Part shown: positions 23,978 through 32,070 of the stretch, in pieces
Layout of the letters: each line of letters starts with the position of its first letter
Numbering within the stretch: position 1 is the first letter of the stretch
DNA from: an uncultured Pseudomonadota bacterium
Lineage (GTDB): Bacteria > Pseudomonadota > Gammaproteobacteria > Steroidobacterales > Steroidobacteraceae
NCBI GenBank assembly: GCA_903879335.1
Contig: CAIRLC010000017.1
Coordinates: 1 to 64,000 of the forward strand
Reading direction: 5' to 3'
DNA length: 64,000 nt
The notes under the pieces: generated by a model
Told to the model about the DNA's origin: nothing
Seen by the model: only the letters and a program-made list of their open reading frames with translations
The model's database searches: none
Program-made: the position numbers and the translations under genes

Positions 23978-24603
23978 CCGGAGAGATCCTCTGCTTGACA
24001 GACGGCTGCAAAACTTCGCCTCGCGGTCATCCGCTCGACCAAGCTAGCTATTGCCGGCCAGTGCAATGCCGAAGTTGGCAAATGGCGGGACCAGCGGGCG
24101 AGCATGGCCGCATGGAAGTCCACCACGGTCGGCGTGTCCGTCCCACAAATGTAGGGGCCCTGGACCAGCAAGTGGTCATTGAGTCGCTGAAAGGCGGCCT
24201 CTAATCGAGACCGCGCCATGGACTGAACCACCTCCTGCGCGCCCTCGCCTGCCGGCTCAGTCGGATAAAACCAGTTCCGGAATGCCGGCTGCACGGTATT
24301 GGCTAAATGCAGCATCCATTGCAAATACATTTCCCGGCGCGGATCACCGAGCACGGGCGCGAGCGCATGTTCGGGATGCCGCTCGGCAAGCAACAGCCCA
24401 AGCGCCGCCGCTTCATAGACCGGTCGCCCGTCGACGAGCAACAAGGGCACCATTCCGTTTGGATTCAGACGCAAATACTCCGGCGACTTATGTTCGCCCC
24501 GCTCACCATCGACGCAGACCAAGCGGTATGAAGCCCCGATGTCGATCAGCAACCAGTGGACCACGAAACTGGCGGCACCAGGCATGTAATACAGGGTGTA
24601 CAA
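23968..24603 (-). CDS. Glutathione S-transferase family protein
   Basis: A 211-residue GST. The thioredoxin-like N-terminal domain has the active-site region YYMPGAASFVVH, the cis-Pro block NPNGMVPLLLVDG and the glutathione-binding VYEAAALGLLLAERHP. The all-helical C-terminal domain has the conserved GTDTPTVVDFHAAMLARW. The catalytic residue is probably a Ser or Ala-flanked Ser in GAAS rather than Cys. The physiological substrate is unknown. It overlaps the GNAT gene by 10 bp. Confidence 0.88.
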   Translation of the reverse strand: MYTLYYMPGAASFVVHWLLIDIGASYRLVCVDGERGEHKSPEYLRLNPNGMVPLLLVDGRPVYEAAALGLLLAERHPEHALAPVLGDPRREMYLQWMLHLANTVQPAFRNWFYPTEPAGEGAQEVVQSMARSRLEAAFQRLNDHLLVQGPYICGTDTPTVVDFHAAMLARWSRHLPTSALHWPAIASLVERMTARRSFAAVCQAEDLSGWP

Positions 24604-24709
24604 AAGGCGTTCTCCCTTCCCGAAGCGCTATACCGGTAGGCCCCGCTGTCCCCGGCGCCGAATAGCGTTCATAATGCCCGGGTTTGATTCGCCTAGGAAC
24701 TCTGATTCA

Positions 24710-25774
24710 ATGTCTGCCGCGCTCAAGATCGTTACTGAAAACTCTTCCGCTTCAACGACCTACAGCATTCCACGGCTGCGGGAAGTGCTGTCAGCGTACT
24801 ATCGCCGTTCAACCGCGATCGCGATTGCGCTGTTGTCTGCGGATATCGCGCTATTCGGCTTCGCAGAATGGCTGGTTGCGCGCAACAGCCTCGGCTGGCA
24901 ATTGTTGGGCTCGGTTTTGGCGACACTGGCGATTGTGCGCCTCTTCATTATTGGGCACGACGCGTGCCATGGCAGCCTGACGGATCACGACGGACTCAAT
25001 AAGGTATTGGGCCGCATCGCGTTTCTGCCGTCGATGACGCCCTACAGCTTGTGGCGGGTCGGCCATAACGTGGTCCACCACGGCTTCAATAGCCTGAAGG
25101 GCCGTGATTTCGTTTGGGAGCCCAAAGACCCCTCGGAGTGGGAGCAACTGTCGCCCGCCGGCAAGGCGCTAGAGCGGCTGTACCGCAGTGCAGCGGGACC
25201 TTTGCCGTACTACTTGTTTGAAATCTGGTGGCGTCGTCTGTACTACCCACGCGGCAAGAATTCGCCGGGCAGTCGCTCTGAGTTCTTCTGGGATTCAACG
25301 CTGGTGACCGTTTTCGCAGCGCTATGGATCGGGGGCTTGGTCATGTTCTCGGCGGGCTCTATCGGTGTATCCGTGGTGCTCGGATTCCTGATTCCGTTTC
25401 TGGTTTGGAACTGGACGGTTGGCTTTGTGGTGTATCTGCATCACACCCACCCAGATTTCGTTTGGTATGCCGATAAGACGTCTTGGCTGAAGGAACAGGG
25501 CATCCTCCACGGCACGGTGCGGTACCGCATCCGCCCTTGGTGGAACTTCCTGCTGCACAACATCATGGAACATGCGGCACATCATCTGGATGCCAAGATC
25601 CCGCTCTATCGACTCAAAGCAGCGCAAACGGCCCTTGCGAAACTGGTCCCGGAAATCCCCGAGATCGAGTTGTCGATGCGCACGTACTGGCGCACGGTAC
25701 GCGAATGCAAGCTGTTCGATTTTGACCGTAAAGTTTGGGTGCGATTCCCGAAGAGCGCTCGCGCCAACGCCTAG
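24710..25774 (+). CDS. Fatty acid desaturase (membrane di-iron)
   Basis: A 354-residue integral membrane desaturase. All three histidine boxes are present: GHDACHGS, GHNVVHHGF and, near the end, EHAAHHLDAKIP with the upstream HNIMEHAAHH. Hydrophobic pairs flank the boxes. It resembles the DesA/delta-12 FADS group, which introduces double bonds into acyl lipids with ferredoxin-derived electrons. The ATG at 24710 was chosen for TAGGAA upstream; the open frame extends to 24596, over the start of the divergent GST gene. A truncated paralogue lies at 31065. Confidence 0.88.
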   Translation: MSAALKIVTENSSASTTYSIPRLREVLSAYYRRSTAIAIALLSADIALFGFAEWLVARNSLGWQLLGSVLATLAIVRLFIIGHDACHGSLTDHDGLNKVLGRIAFLPSMTPYSLWRVGHNVVHHGFNSLKGRDFVWEPKDPSEWEQLSPAGKALERLYRSAAGPLPYYLFEIWWRRLYYPRGKNSPGSRSEFFWDSTLVTVFAALWIGGLVMFSAGSIGVSVVLGFLIPFLVWNWTVGFVVYLHHTHPDFVWYADKTSWLKEQGILHGTVRYRIRPWWNFLLHNIMEHAAHHLDAKIPLYRLKAAQTALAKLVPEIPEIELSMRTYWRTVRECKLFDFDRKVWVRFPKSARANA

Positions 25775-26253: not shown

Positions 26254-27110
26254 GTCACATCCCCAGACGGTAGATCAATGAAACGCTCTGGATGGGCATA
26301 CACGACATGCCGCCCGGCTCTCGCAAATCCGACAAGCGTCACGCCAAAACGTTCGGCCGAACGAATGGCAAATCCGGTCGGCGCCGACACCGCCACGAGC
26401 GTCGAAATCCCCACTGTCGCGACCTTCTGAACCAACTCGTAGCTCGCCCGACTCGAGACGACTGCGAACCCGCGGGACAAGTCCTCATTGCGGCGAACTA
26501 AAGCCCCAATGAGTTTATCGAGGGCATTGTGACGACCGACATCTTCACGCACCAGAACGACGCCCTGGCCCGGGATCGCCCAGCCGGCTGCATGGATACT
26601 GCCGGTTCGAGCGTTAAAGGCCTGACCATTCGAGAGGCTCAACACTGCATCCTGCACGTCGCGGGCCGTCAGGCTTAAGTCGCTTGAAAAAGCGGACGGT
26701 CGGCGAATGGCGTCATCGACGGTCTCCGCGCCACACATGCCACAACCGGTTCTACCGGTCAGGTTCCGCTGACGCTCGAGAAGCTTTGAGAAACGCTCCG
26801 GCAATATATTGAGGCGCACCTCCAAAGCGCCGTCCACCTCGGCAGCCTCCACCGCCCGGATTTCCGAGGCTCCCTCTACGATCGCCTCCGTCAGCGTAAA
26901 ACCGATAGCCAAATCCTCAAGATCACGTGGCGTCGCCAACATAACGACGTGAGGGACCCCCTGGTAACGAAAGGCAATCGGCCACTCTTCAGCGACAGAA
27001 TCAGTGACTTTTGAGATCAATCCACCATCCCAACGGGTCACGGACACCTCGCCCGTCGGCGCGGGGTTCAGTAAGCCACTGAGACGCAGGTCGTCGGACA
27101 CGTTGATCAC
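26250..27110 (-). CDS. fdhD: Formate dehydrogenase sulfurtransferase FdhD
   Basis: A 286-residue FdhD. It carries the essential cysteine pair in TGRTGCGMCGAETVDDA, the conserved FNARTGSIHAAGWA, VREDVGRHNALDKLIGA and SSRASYELVQK. FdhD transfers sulfur from IscS to the molybdenum cofactor of formate dehydrogenases. No formate dehydrogenase structural gene is in the window, so its client must lie elsewhere. GTG at 27110 and another GTG three codons later are both possible starts; TAGGTGATC precedes the second. Confidence 0.92.
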   Translation of the reverse strand: MINVSDDLRLSGLLNPAPTGEVSVTRWDGGLISKVTDSVAEEWPIAFRYQGVPHVVMLATPRDLEDLAIGFTLTEAIVEGASEIRAVEAAEVDGALEVRLNILPERFSKLLERQRNLTGRTGCGMCGAETVDDAIRRPSAFSSDLSLTARDVQDAVLSLSNGQAFNARTGSIHAAGWAIPGQGVVLVREDVGRHNALDKLIGALVRRNEDLSRGFAVVSSRASYELVQKVATVGISTLVAVSAPTGFAIRSAERFGVTLVGFARAGRHVVYAHPERFIDLPSGDVT

Positions 27111-27250
27111 CTACCACAGCATTGAAAGGAGGCACGGCACAGAACGAGGAACAGCACGCCGAGGGCACGGGACGATGGGCCGGCTGACCCGCCCGCCCGG
27201 TCGATGCGGCGCTCCGACCCAGTTTACACGCAACGATCGTGACCCTACCC

Positions 27251-27267
27251 CTCTCAAGGCTTGAGAG
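27251..27267. promoter_or_regulatory. Palindrome upstream of the SBP-permease operon
   Basis: CTCTCAAG-G-CTTGAGAG is a perfect 8-bp inverted repeat around one base. It lies about 135 bp before the transporter start and 15 bp upstream of a TTGATA that could be a -35 element (27283-27288; possible -10 TATTCT at 27308-27313, spacing 19). It is an operator candidate; the regulator is unknown. The rest of 27111-27402 shows no gene. Confidence 0.35.
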
Positions 27268-27402
27268 CCAGAACGCGGATTATTGATAGCGCGACCAAAA
27301 CCTAAGCTATTCTGCGCACTGATCGCGGCTCTAGACCGCGCCGGTCGGCAAGATCGGTGACCACACTAGGCCCGCACACCCATCACGGAGACAGGTACTC
27401 GC

Positions 27403-29694
27403 ATGTGTCGCGCACTTAAGTTTTTGATCGCCTGTTTATGGATCTCGACGACCGCTTTAGCAGGGGCGTCCGAGCAGGCAACGCAAGCCGGCCTGTACAG
27501 CACACCCGCCGATTTGCACGGCAAGCGAATCGCAGTGGCTGTGGGCTCGGCCCAGGAAGCTTGGCTGAGTAAACACTATGCGGACTCGGTGATCCTACAG
27601 TACGACACGATACCGGACCTGGTCATGGCGGTCACAGCGGGGAAGGCAGACGCCACGTTGAAGGATGCGGGAACCCTAAAGGAACTCCTGCGCAAGAATG
27701 ACTCTGTCGCCATTCTCGGCGACTCCATGTTCGACTCGCCTTTGGCTTCGGGCTTTGAAAAGGGTCACCCCGAATTCCGCGTGCCTTTCAACCACTTCCT
27801 CAAGACCATCCGCGACAATGGTGTCTACGCGGACATGATCGATCGCTGGATCAAGCAGGGCGTGAGCAAGATGCCAAGGATCGAGAACCGAGGCCGCAAT
27901 GGAACGTTCACGGTTGGCGTTTCACTCGTGGGGCTCCCCTTCGCCAGCATCCAAGACAACGTGCCGACCGGTCTATTTTTTGAGTTCATGGAGCGTTTTG
28001 GCGCATCGATCGGTAAAACACCAAAATTCCAATTTCTAGAAGTCGGTGGAATGGTCGCCGCATCCGCTTCAGGCAAGGTCGACATGATTACCGCCCTCTT
28101 CGATACCGAAGAGCGTCGTAAAAAGATCGATTTTTCTGATCCGATTTACACCATGGGCAATCACTTTGTGGTGCTCAAACGGAATCTGGCTAACCCTAAT
28201 GATTCAACCCCACAGGCCCCAAAAGCCACGGACGGAAAACTACATTCTGCAGAGGATTTGCACGGCAAACGCATTGCCGTGCTGATGGGTAGCGCATACG
28301 AAAGTTATGCGACGAAAAATTTTCCAGATTCAACAGTGCTCCAATTCCAGACTGCGGCAGACGTCTTGGAATCGATTAAATATGGTAAAGCCGATGCCTC
28401 GATCAACGACCTCGACACCCTGCGCGTCATACTCAAAGCTGACCCGGCGTTCGGCGAGGTGGGCGACGTCCTGTTTAGCTTCAAGACTGCCGCTGGATTT
28501 CGGAAGAACGAGGATGATCTACGCGCAAAATTTAATGCTTACCTCGCCACCATCCGAAAAAATGGGGATTACGACCAGATTGTCGCGGCGTGGTTGACTG
28601 GCGAAAAAACGGAAATGCCGGAGATTCCGAACTCGGGCGCTAATGGCGAACTCATCGTCGGCACGACGAATCTCGGCTTACCAACGGTGGCCGTTAAGGA
28701 CAACAAACTTGTCGGAGCGGACATCGAACTGGTAACCCGCTTTGCAGCATCCATCGGCAAGACCCCTAAATTTTCGGTGATGGATTTCGGCGGACTCATC
28801 GCCGCCCTCGTCTCAGGCAAAGTCGATCTGATCGCCAGTGGGATTTTCGTCACGGAAGAGAGACTCAAGAAGATCAATTTCTCCGATCCATACTATGAAG
28901 CTGGAAATAAGTTTTTCGCCCTAAAAACGAATATCGCTGGCAGTCAGAATTCGAATACAGCGGCAGGTGCCGCAACTGAGCAGTCACCACCAAGCTTTCT
29001 ATCAAGACTCAAAGCAAGTTTTGAGTCCAATATCTTGGCTGAAAAACGCTACTTGATGATCCTTGAGGGTCTTAAAACGACGATTATTATTTCCGTTCTC
29101 GCGACCTTGTTTGGCACAGCGTTGGGCGGCGTCATCTGCTTCCTACGTATGTCATCAAACGTGTGGCTGAACGCACCTGCCAAGGCCTACATCGCCATAT
29201 TGCGGGGTACTCCCGTTCTGGTGTTGTTGATGCTTATTTTCTACGTGGTTTTCGGTTCAGTGAACATTGATCCAGTCATAGTGGCAGTCATCGCCTTTGG
29301 GATGAACTTTGCCGCTTACTTCGCAGAAATATTCCGTTCTGGCCTGGCGGGAATCGAGCGAGGACAAACCGAAGCCGGCATCGCGATGGGCTTAACAACT
29401 ACGCAGACATTCATCCATGTACTGCTGCCACAAACCATCGTGCGCATCCTGCCTGTCTACAAGGGCGAGTTCATTTCGCTGGTGAAAATGACATCCATCG
29501 TGGGCTACATCGCGGTCCACGATCTGACGAAGGCCGGCGACATCATTCGTAGCCGGACGTTTGACGCGTTTTTTCCGTTAGTGATGGTCGCAGTGTTGTA
29601 CTTCCTCATCGCGGCAGTACTGATTCAGGGATTGGAATATTTAGAGCGAAAAACTGATCCTGTTGCTCGTCGCCGCAAGGGGGGTGCGAAATGA
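27403..29694 (+). CDS. Tandem substrate-binding lobes fused to amino-acid-type ABC permease
   Basis: A 763-residue fusion. A Sec signal (1-22, no lipobox) is followed by two similar units of about 225 residues. Each unit is a type 3 solute-binding protein written in reversed lobe order: C-lobe-like 37-165 ([35 protein letters not shown]), N-lobe-like 167-262 ([25 protein letters not shown]), C-lobe 285-405 ([35 protein letters not shown]) and N-lobe 416-510 ([27 protein letters not shown]). The carboxylate-binding Arg (238, 487) is kept in both. A HisM-type permease domain with EAA loop [14 protein letters not shown] fills 545-750. Read along the chain, 167-405 is a normal N-C protein, while the first and last lobes could pair across it. 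Fused binding domains are known in GlnP-type importers; this lobe order is unusual. It overlaps the ATPase gene by 4 bp. Confidence 0.88.
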
Positions 29695-30782
29695 TTAAGG
29701 TCGACCATCTATCCAAGAGTTATGGGACGCTGAAGGTATTGCGTGACATCACCACTGAGATCAAGAAGGGTGAAGTCGTCGCCATTATTGGCCCATCGGG
29801 CACCGGCAAGAGCACCTTCCTCCGCTGCCTTAATCTGCTGGACACGCCAACAGGAGGGTTGATTTCGATCGACGGTCAGAACATCTTAGATCCGAAGACG
29901 GATGTTCCGAAGATTCGGCAAAAAATGAACATGGTCTTCCAGTCGTTCAACCTTTTTTCACACTTGACCGTACTCGAGAACCTCACGCTCGCGCCGGTCA
30001 AATTGCGGGGTGTTTCGCTCGAACAAGCCAAGACTCGGGGTATGGAACTCCTTCGTCTTGTCGGCTTGGGTGAGAAGGCTGAGCAATTCCCACACGAACT
30101 ATCGGGTGGTCAGAAGCAACGCGTCGCAATCGCTCGGTGCTTGGCGATGGAGCCCGAGGTTATTTTGTTCGACGAGCCCACCTCAGCGCTCGACCCCACA
30201 ATGGTCAGTGAGGTACTCAGCGTTATTCGCCGACTCGCTAAAGATGGCATGACCATGGCCATCGTTACCCATGAGATGGATTTTGCTCGTGATGTCGCCA
30301 GCCGTATTTTTTATATGGATCAGGGTCTGATCTATGAGGAAGGTACGCCCGATCAGATATTCAACAACCCGCAAAAAGAACTCACACGCTCATTTATCAA
30401 TCGTGTGAAGACCTGCCGGTACTCAATTGCATCGGCTGACTTTGATCTCTATGCCATGAATGGTCAGATTCAGGTGTTCTGCGAGAAACACGCCATCTCG
30501 GCTAAGACGTGCGGCAATCTTCTTCTAGTGTCCGAAGAAGTCTTGCAGCTCTATAAGCCACTGCTCAGCTCGCGAAAACTCGAAGTGATCGTCGGATATT
30601 CCGAAAAGACCGGGCAGATCGAACTGGTGTTCGAGAGCGACGGGCACATCGGCAATGTGCTTGAAGCTGAAGATCTTGACGACAACCTGCCTTTAGTCCT
30701 CATCCGCGGCTATACCGATGGAATCGAATTTCAGCACGGCGAATCCGGTGACCGCTTGCGGCTATTGGTCAGGAAGAGCTAA
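29691..30782 (+). CDS. Amino-acid ABC transporter ATPase with C-terminal RsbW-like extension
   Basis: A 363-residue protein. Residues 1-237 are a complete GlnQ/HisP-type ATPase: Walker [11 protein letters not shown]-loop [10 protein letters not shown], signature [15 protein letters not shown], Walker [14 protein letters not shown], switch THEMDFA. This is the normal full length. About 126 further residues follow. They read like an anti-sigma/GHKL ATPase fold: [26 protein letters not shown] (helix with N-box position), [22 protein letters not shown] (strands and G1-like D-G), then [30 protein letters not shown] (terminal helix and strand). The N-box Asn and the second glycine motif look lost, so it may bind without hydrolysing. 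The first domain is certain, the second is inference. It energises the fused permease encoded just upstream. Confidence 0.88.
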
Positions 30783-31064: not shown

Positions 31065-31781
31065 TTAGGGAATATCCCCGCACCCCTCAACGGAGCAAGA
31101 TAGCGATAGTCGCAGCAGGGCGATGTTATTCCAGGTCATGTGTCGGTACTCAGACGCGTTTTTCCAATAGCGCGGCTTGAAGCTCGCTACGTGCACTCGC
31201 ACTGCGATGCCCGGCTCACGCAGCTTGCTGCGGACGACGTGAATGACCCACTGCACGGTGCCCTTCAGCCACGTGTAGCGCGGATTAAATACCAGATAGA
31301 TGAATCCGGCGAGCGGCGCCGTCAGCATGCTGCACTTGCGCCGGTACATGCGCTGACCTGACTCTGATAGGGCCGCGTATTCCTCCACCGAGAGCGTCGT
31401 GTACGGGCCGCGGTACTTGCTCCAATCGCCGTTGTGAGCATGGTGAAAGTTGTGGTTCTGCGCCCAAACGAACTGCGGCATACCGGCCAGCACGCCGAAG
31501 ACAAACCCGCCCAAACGATTGAAAAAACGGCTGCGAAATAAGCTGAAGTGGCCACAATCGTGCATCAACGCAAAAGCGCGCAACGTAAATAACGCGAGCA
31601 GCGGCACCACGAGTACTGTCAGCCAGACCGAGACGCTGGCAGTCCGCACGGTCACCCACCACAGACCGGCGATTGGCAGCACCGTAGTCAACAGCTGGGT
31701 CAGGCCTTTTAGATTATCGGGAGTGCTGTAGCGGGAGATGATCTCCCGTTTACGCTGCTTAATGCGGTCAATCGAGGGCAC
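31065..31781 (-). pseudogene. C-terminally truncated fatty acid desaturase
   Basis: The frame encodes a di-iron membrane desaturase with the first two histidine boxes (LMHDCGHFSLF and QNHNFHHAHNGDW) and the conserved SFKPRYWKNASEYRHMTWNNIALL. The reading frame then leaves the family and stops after about 17 unrelated residues. The third box, needed for iron binding and expected about 80 residues later, is missing. The break lies about 150-200 bp from the left attachment repeat, so loss at the element edge is likely. GTG at 31781 is the most plausible start; the open frame upstream to 31919 has no family similarity. Confidence 0.75.
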
Positions 31782-32070
31782 TGGGGAACTCGCCTCTAGG
31801 CTGGCTGTGATTGTGCACAGAGGTCTACCGTAGCAGATGGGCCACGACCGGGACACCCTCCTCCTCGCGAAGGGCCAGCGACCCAGCCAGCCGCAGCCCC
31901 GTTTTGCCGGACCCACCAAGGCGCTGCTGCGCCGTGGTTCTTACCCGCCTTGCCCGACGCCGCCAAGAGCGCTGGTGATTTAACGAAAAACAAGATGCCC
32001 CCTGCTCTCATCGCCACGCAGGGCAAGGGAGTTGACTGAAGCGCTTGCTGGGGGAGCCAGCAGGGCGAGC
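31782..32070. other. Non-coding gap inside the element
   Basis: Nothing recognisable was found between the truncated desaturase and the serine hydrolase stop codon. No hairpin with a U tract and no conserved ORF. Confidence 0.5.

Follow-up and report, generated by a model that had tools for sequence, protein, structure and literature searches.

Which lobes pair with which in a protein where the two lobes of an amino-acid binding protein stand in reversed order, twice over, ahead of a permease? This question is raised by an open reading frame (ORF) at 27403-29694 of the window, by which we mean the whole stretch of 64,000 nucleotides analysed here, from an uncultured bacterium of the Steroidobacteraceae. 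The ORF spans 763 codons, with exactly the coordinates given in an earlier sequence-only reading of this DNA, and the ORF list holds no + strand ORF of at least 90 amino acids upstream of it, in 27110-27403. Two ORFs that resemble fatty-acid desaturases by eye, from their His motifs (24596-25774 and 31065-31919 of the window), flank the importer region.

Lobe order of the binding protein-permease fusion

The 763-residue chain runs from a signal peptide through C-lobe, N-lobe, C-lobe and N-lobe to the permease, with the following features:

27403..27468, + strand: signal peptide, residues 1-22; hydrophobic N-terminus directly 5' of C-lobe 1, boundary estimated by eye
27502..27876, + strand: C-lobe 1 of permuted SBP unit 1 with the C-terminal helices, residues 34-158; Pfam SBP_bac_3 profile 79-131, 140 bits with our own lobe HMM, Asp88 kept
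27892..28188, + strand: N-lobe 1 of permuted SBP unit 1, residues 164-262; 100 bits with our own lobe HMM, unit model pLDDT 95.5 and pTM 0.89, TEER Arg238
28189..28239, + strand: inter-domain linker from N1 to C2, residues 263-279; pLDDT below 50 at residues 245-252 of the two-unit model, linker statistics
28240..28617, + strand: C-lobe 2 of permuted SBP unit 2, residues 280-405; 140 bits with our own lobe HMM, Pfam SBP_bac_3, Asp336 kept
28633..28935, + strand: N-lobe 2 of permuted SBP unit 2, residues 411-511; 128 bits with our own lobe HMM, Pfam profile 1-93, TEER Arg487
29038..29661, + strand: permease domain of the amino-acid importer class, residues 546-753; PF00528 E=1.3e-17, HEQRo_perm_3TM 73.7 bits (cut-off 42.2), PDB 4yms_D

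Both lobes match by sequence: Pfam finds SBP_bac_3 (PF00497) in three stretches, with E=1.8e-50 for the 763-residue protein, and BPD_transp_1 at residues 575-751 of the same chain. A sequence search of the PDB matches residues 552-750 to the permease chain 4yms_D (E=4.2e-32); in such a search residues 413-510 align to the first halves, and residues 274-402 to the second halves, of canonical amino-acid SBPs (the solved proteins matched in this way being glutamine and arginine binding proteins), so that the lobe order is reversed. The C-N-C-N-permease order proposed from the sequence alone is borne out by the PDB sequence matches, Pfam and our own lobe HMMs, and both of the motif sets described at the time (DLHGKR, GKAD, FN-x-L-TIR-NG and TEER-KKI-FSDP, once in each repeat) are present in the ORF. 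Units 1 and 2 share 44% identity and thus form a real internal repeat, but the length of about 225 residues first given for it was too short, a unit being nearer 238-242 residues.

Pfam annotates the reversed halves poorly, which makes their order easy to mistake, and the arrangement could in principle be an artefact of annotation or assembly, namely an N-C-N-C protein minus its first lobe. However, the signal-peptide-like stretch directly precedes C-lobe 1, and 79 of 80 homologous loci yield a stop-free ORF that contains a C-N unit, the remaining one (L096) being cut by a contig edge; with this start and these homologues, a truncated N-C-N-C protein is ruled out, and the probability that we would still assign to an artefact is practically negligible.

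The family of permuted units and the pairing of their lobes

A scan of genome contigs seeded with the window protein gave 120 relatives, from which 80 loci were retained; seeded in this way, the sample consists of relatives of this architecture. Lobe profiles were built from the window and expanded on the 80 loci. Across loci L021-L100 there are 107 distinct ORFs with a C-N unit: 23 of them (in 20 loci) consist of the unit without a permease, while 25 have one unit before the permease, 33 have two, 15 three and 8 four, and the three others start at a contig edge (L067, L074) or include a weak partial lobe (L071). The ORF of L096, which lies at a contig edge and reads N-lobe then permease, was left out of the 107 for want of a C-N unit. 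In none of the 107 is the first C-lobe preceded by a complete N-lobe, and since the same lobe HMMs find the N-C order in 22 canonical ORFs, the C-N order is not forced by the method. The homologue search suggested by the sequence-only reading finds its lobe order in these relatives, with a copy number that varies from one to four C-N units before the permease. The records of the relatives are labelled as Gammaproteobacteria, Burkholderiales, Geobacter and relatives, Chlorobium, Firmicutes (Formimonas, Syntrophomonas), Novosphingobium and others, although MAG labels can be wrong.

The window's own genome also encodes a stand-alone C-N protein (L110, at G000:C7:6431-7138) with a lipoprotein-like start, as judged by eye; its C-lobe region also matches Phosphonate-bd (PF12974, E=7e-9). 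The contig-edge ORF L074:2-2533 reads N-C-N-permease-C-N, with a further permuted unit 3' of the permease.

The joints between lobes are of two kinds. In the family ORFs, C-to-N joints (n=211) are short and constant at 5-14 residues, and N-to-C joints (n=96) are longer, variable and rich in A/G/S/P/T, at 8-40 residues. When corrected for profile ends, the median N-to-C joint is 15 residues in the family (n=97) versus 4 in the canonical proteins (n=22), where this joint is the true crossover between the lobes; the family maximum of 291 residues probably comes from an ORF with a permease in between.

AlphaFold2 predicts window unit 1 alone (from a 139-unit alignment) with a pLDDT of 95.5 and a pTM of 0.89, the latter implying a fixed mutual position of the two lobes. 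For the two-unit segment (50 sequences) the pLDDT is 91.7 and the pTM 0.54, and the only stretches of at least three residues with a pLDDT below 50 are model residues 1-4 and 245-252, of which the latter falls in the N1-to-C2 linker. In such models, these are the scores that two rigid bodies on a flexible link give, while pTM alone has no power to tell which lobes pair. Among the best 50 of 1400 Foldseek matches to the two-unit model, no target-normalised TM exceeds 0.50; the alignments of 6svf, 8eyz and 4f3p cover 246-259 columns and have an identity of 22-24% and an rmsd of about 22 Å, while that of 4prs covers 195 columns (14.8 Å) and that of 4g4p 249 columns (15% identity, 7.0 Å). The low TM together with an rmsd of about 22 Å to canonical SBPs argues that the two-unit model holds no canonically closed N1-C2 pair. 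The single-unit model likewise has no TM above 0.50 among its best 50 of 1321 matches, as expected when a sequential aligner is given a permuted fold. The pairing of the lobes is in this way inferred from pTM, pLDDT and the Foldseek table rather than measured.

The unit model, the stand-alone and single C-N homologues and the linker pattern together lead us to regard each repeat as very probably a compact, naturally circularly permuted SBP_bac_3 domain. The sequence-only reading had weighed precisely this outcome, with each repeat folding alone as a compact permuted SBP, against its own preference, and the prediction (pTM 0.89) falls on the side of the compact repeat. What it had preferred were two interlocked sites, in which N1 and C2 form a normal SBP in the middle, with the outer lobes, C1 and N2, closing over this SBP as a second, permuted one. 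A C-N-C-N order would permit this, N1-C2 does stand in canonical order, and the best Pfam stretch, residues 170-399, covers just these two lobes; but C-N units occur singly, both alone and before a permease, members with one or three units cannot all pair up in this manner, a single unit is predicted to be compact, and the N1-C2 link is long, variable and of low complexity. The weak Foldseek matches of the two-unit model, including those to 6svf, 8eyz and 4f3p, also speak against it. Linkers, AlphaFold2 models, Foldseek, members with one to four units and lone homologues together rule out interlocked lobes as the main reading, and the probability that we leave to them is very small. The idea that this may be a new importer architecture accordingly survives in part: as far as the structure and literature searches reach, the architecture is undescribed, and its lobe order and two kept sites are supported, whereas the interlocking of those sites is not.

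A domain swap, with permuted units exchanging C- and N-lobes between neighbouring units or between two permease protomers, is only slightly less improbable in our view. Linkers with a median of about 16 residues would allow some exchange, and single-chain AlphaFold is blind to swapping between chains; stand-alone units and single-unit fusions, however, have no need of a swap, and the low-complexity linkers fit beads on a string.

The Arg of the TEER motif, which we take to bind the ligand carboxylate as in GlnH-type structures, is kept in 138 of the 139 aligned units, the single exception being a Glu in the unit after the permease of L074:2-2533. In the window protein both of these Arg residues (Arg238 and Arg487) are in place, in agreement with the sequence-only reading. 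The position of Asp88 and Asp336, which presumably binds the ligand amino group as in GlnH-type structures, is Asp in 72 of 139 units, in 13 of the 14 stand-alone ones and in both window units; with Asp in only 72 units, many relatives may bind other ligands. Our best guess for the window protein, in which we are reasonably confident, is a ligand of the amino-acid type, either an amino acid or a related carboxylate.

In a tree of concatenated lobes set in a common order, 112 permuted units (thinned from 211) and 20 canonical SBPs (thinned from 22) separate without error, with a support of 0.91. Separate C-lobe and N-lobe trees give no clean split of permuted from canonical proteins, with 10 misplaced at best, and a single permutation event is for this reason likely rather than shown. 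Window units 1 and 2 fall into sister groups within one 7-leaf clade (support 0.95), which indicates a duplication of the entire C-N unit in this lineage. The permutation could plausibly have arisen from an ancestor with tandem N-C-N-C lobes through loss of the first and the last of them.

The tailed ATPase and its gene neighbourhood

The permease stop and the start of the ATPase gene (29691-30782) have 4 bases in common, and the ATPase falls into two parts:

29691..30410, + strand: ABC ATPase core, GlnQ-like, residues 1-240; PF00005 E=9e-36, best NCBIfam match GlnQ with E=4.5e-90 and 301 bits (below the 379-bit cut-off)
30411..30782, + strand: degenerate RsbW-like HATPase_c_2 domain as C-terminal ATPase tail, residues 241-363; family tails versus PF13581, hhalign to RsbW-like proteins

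With its binding domains N-terminal to a BPD_transp_1 permease and a GlnQ-like ATPase adjoining, the locus has the layout of the GlnPQ type. The tail is about 123 residues long in the window and 100-140 residues long in 66 of the 69 ATPases that score above 300 bits (L021-L100). The window's tail alone finds no match in Pfam or the PDB, but 40 of 56 family tails match HATPase_c_2 (PF13581, E<=10), with a best E of 1.4e-7; a PDB search with the tail profile gives three matches only, at E 0.5-1.1. When aligned by hhalign with 15 RsbW-like proteins (14 from homologous loci and one from elsewhere in the window's genome), the tail profile reaches a probability of 97.7% and E=1.6e-12 over 114 columns. 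The N-box Asn, which is needed for the ATP/Mg site, is present in all 15 RsbW-like proteins aligned and absent in 55 of the 56 tails, so that kinase activity of the tail is unlikely; from these alignments the tail is probably a non-catalytic docking domain. The sole tail that keeps the Asn (EETLVN, in L098, ATPase near 103-1233) may show an ancestral, catalytic state.

Permuted units (E<=1e-20) and strong tail matches (E <1e-40) are found in the same 10 of 60 related genomes, although these genomes share ancestry and do not represent 10 independent events. A short ORF of 262-327 codons with a C-N unit is also present in eight of these 10. Outside the 10, two related genomes show weak matches to the tail (E near 6e-5) in ORFs that are 153 and 197 codons long. 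Across the phylum, a permuted unit (E<=1e-45, with at most 7 candidates scored per genome among the matches listed) or a tail (E<=1e-15) was seen in one of 398 genomes, the window's own, and the family is thus patchy.

A STAS gene lies directly downstream of 26 of the 65 tailed ATPases that have at least 500 bases downstream, and 39 are without one. In 12 of those 26 an RsbW-like gene follows the STAS gene on the same strand; in seven further loci (L025, L026, L027, L028, L043, L070 and L072) the STAS gene is followed by a weaker RsbW-like ORF on the opposite strand, with E near 1e-10 to 1e-11. SpoIIE is found directly upstream in 21 of 66 loci with room for it, and of all 80 homologous loci 27 contain a SpoIIE-domain ORF and 16 an NMT1-type binding protein. 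A scan of 86 of the 319 listed neighbours gave 11 matches to NMT1 and 5 to HATPase_c_2; ten more neighbours, chosen by position, were five SpoIIE phosphatases with Cache-type or other sensor domains, one NMT1 protein and four unrelated ones, while ten small ORFs, again chosen by position, were six STAS, three HATPase_c_2 and one without a match. Beside the window's importer there are no SpoIIE, STAS or RsbW-like genes; elsewhere in the same genome there is one SpoIIE match and a STAS/HATPase_c_2 pair.

Two further arrangements were seen. In L068 (4045-4934) the importer is closely preceded, rather than followed, by STAS and RsbW-like ORFs, and in L070, L075, L081, L059, L090 and others the operons of permuted importers carry Cache-SpoIIE, STAS and RsbW-like genes, partly with an NMT1-type binding protein.

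RsbU/RsbV/RsbW and SpoIIE/SpoIIAA/SpoIIAB are partner switches, a type of switch that normally serves stress signalling. The homologous operons hold the same domain types (SpoIIE phosphatase, STAS and HATPase_c_2), with the difference that here an extra, degenerate HATPase_c_2 copy is fused to the ABC ATPase. On this gene content we would give partner-switch coupling of the importer an even chance. We tentatively put forward, at slightly less than even, a more specific version: an extracellular Cache-SpoIIE sensor and the RsbW kinase would determine how far the STAS protein is phosphorylated, and STAS bound to the pseudo-kinase tail would switch import, or else the importer would be the sensor of the switch, fed in either case by one to four permuted domains.

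A further alternative is that the complex is mainly a sensor, in which ligand sensed by the permuted SBPs is signalled, by way of the permease and then the ATPase with its tail, to a STAS/RsbW/SpoIIE switch that controls gene expression, with transport being secondary. The kinase-like tail and the SpoIIE, STAS and RsbW-like genes in part of the homologous operons are in line with this, as are the Foldseek ranks 1 and 3 of BvgS and EvgS, which are sensory proteins with SBP-type periplasmic domains. We nonetheless consider it unlikely: the permease and ATPase match importer families, STAS does not adjoin the ATPase in the window or in the majority of tailed relatives counted above, and the loss of the N-box Asn from nearly all tails speaks against kinase activity. 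Our preferred reading is thus still an importer that a partner switch may regulate.

Known systems and a proposed mechanism

In Lactococcus lactis GlnPQ, two tandem SBDs are joined by a short flexible linker before the permease and are reported to be largely independent (PMC8025302). The protein described here resembles GlnPQ in having two SBP domains in tandem before the permease, but the tandem chain 6h30 matches our own profile as N-C-N-C, whereas every complete unit here is C-N; one to four copies and the RsbW-like tail on the ATPase are further differences. Among the best 60 of 485 PDB profile matches, a search for a solved permuted SBP_bac_3 chain gave a best stretch in C-N order only in 6h30 and 4q0c, both of which are tandem-domain chains; the other chains match in two stretches, or in one for three short constructs.

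A natural circular permutation of a bilobed binding protein has a precedent in TpMglB-2 (Tp0684), a glucose-binding protein that still binds sugar, and for which tethering is raised by its authors as a possible reason (PMC4990184). TpMglB-2, however, has a type I (cluster B) sugar fold and is a separate lipoprotein, while the present units have the type II amino-acid fold (SBP_bac_3), are cut between whole lobes and are fused in tandem to a permease. Among the matches listed from the open-licence PMC literature we recognised no permuted SBP_bac_3 protein, TpMglB-2 being the sole natural permuted binding protein; permutation of binding proteins is thus known in the type I class, and its type II SBP_bac_3 counterpart is without a recognised report among those matches. 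The binding domain of L. lactis OpuA is likewise fused to its permease. Glycine-betaine binding domains of the OpuAC type show a 'domain dislocation', by which the lobe order differs between subfamilies. A term search of PMC2861598 gave no hit for this dislocation. OpuAC domains reach a TM of at most 0.48 to the single-unit model among the matches listed and so are not co-linear with it.

For the proposed gating, the nearest case is MlaFEDB, where the STAS protein MlaB is needed for complex assembly and ATPase activity, and its T52A mutation abolishes ATPase activity (PMC5016091). There, as is proposed here, a STAS-domain protein belongs to an ABC transporter complex, but MlaFEDB is a lipid transporter, and MlaB serves as an analogy only. 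To our knowledge, MlaFEDB has no kinase-like tail and no SpoIIE or RsbW partners. In the open-licence PMC literature no partner-switched ABC importer was recognised among the matches listed, MlaB as a STAS subunit apart.

As a whole, we hold with considerable confidence that the locus is best explained by a GlnP-type subunit with tandem permuted SBP_bac_3 domains, a GlnQ-like ATPase and a tail that may dock a STAS switch; the lobe order, the family with one to four units and stand-alone members, the compact unit model, the tail homology, the co-occurrence and the operons form its computed support. We suggest that two complete permuted domains, each made of a C-lobe, closing helices and an N-lobe, would sit in tandem on flexible linkers before the permease, and that each unit would fold and bind on its own. 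Judged from the families they match, the permease and the adjoining GlnQ-like ATPase would then import the ligand, which is probably a small amino acid or a carboxylate of similar kind. In a permuted unit both termini would no longer lie on the N-lobe but on the C-lobe, at its hinge side, and with the termini there, units could stand in series or alone. The degenerate HATPase_c_2 tail may be the docking site for a STAS protein, the phosphorylation of which would be set by an RsbW-like kinase and a SpoIIE phosphatase; by analogy with MlaB, we speculate that such a partner switch gates the importer. Of this mechanism, we infer the positions of the termini, the ligand class, transport, STAS docking and gating.

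The family offers a natural series of permuted type II binding proteins, in which the unit is single, fused once or fused two to four times, and with this series it can be tested whether permutation eases tethering and stacking. The pairing with a tailed ATPase and the SpoIIE, STAS and RsbW-like genes of the operons, in turn, make post-translational partner switching of an ABC importer a concrete and testable idea.
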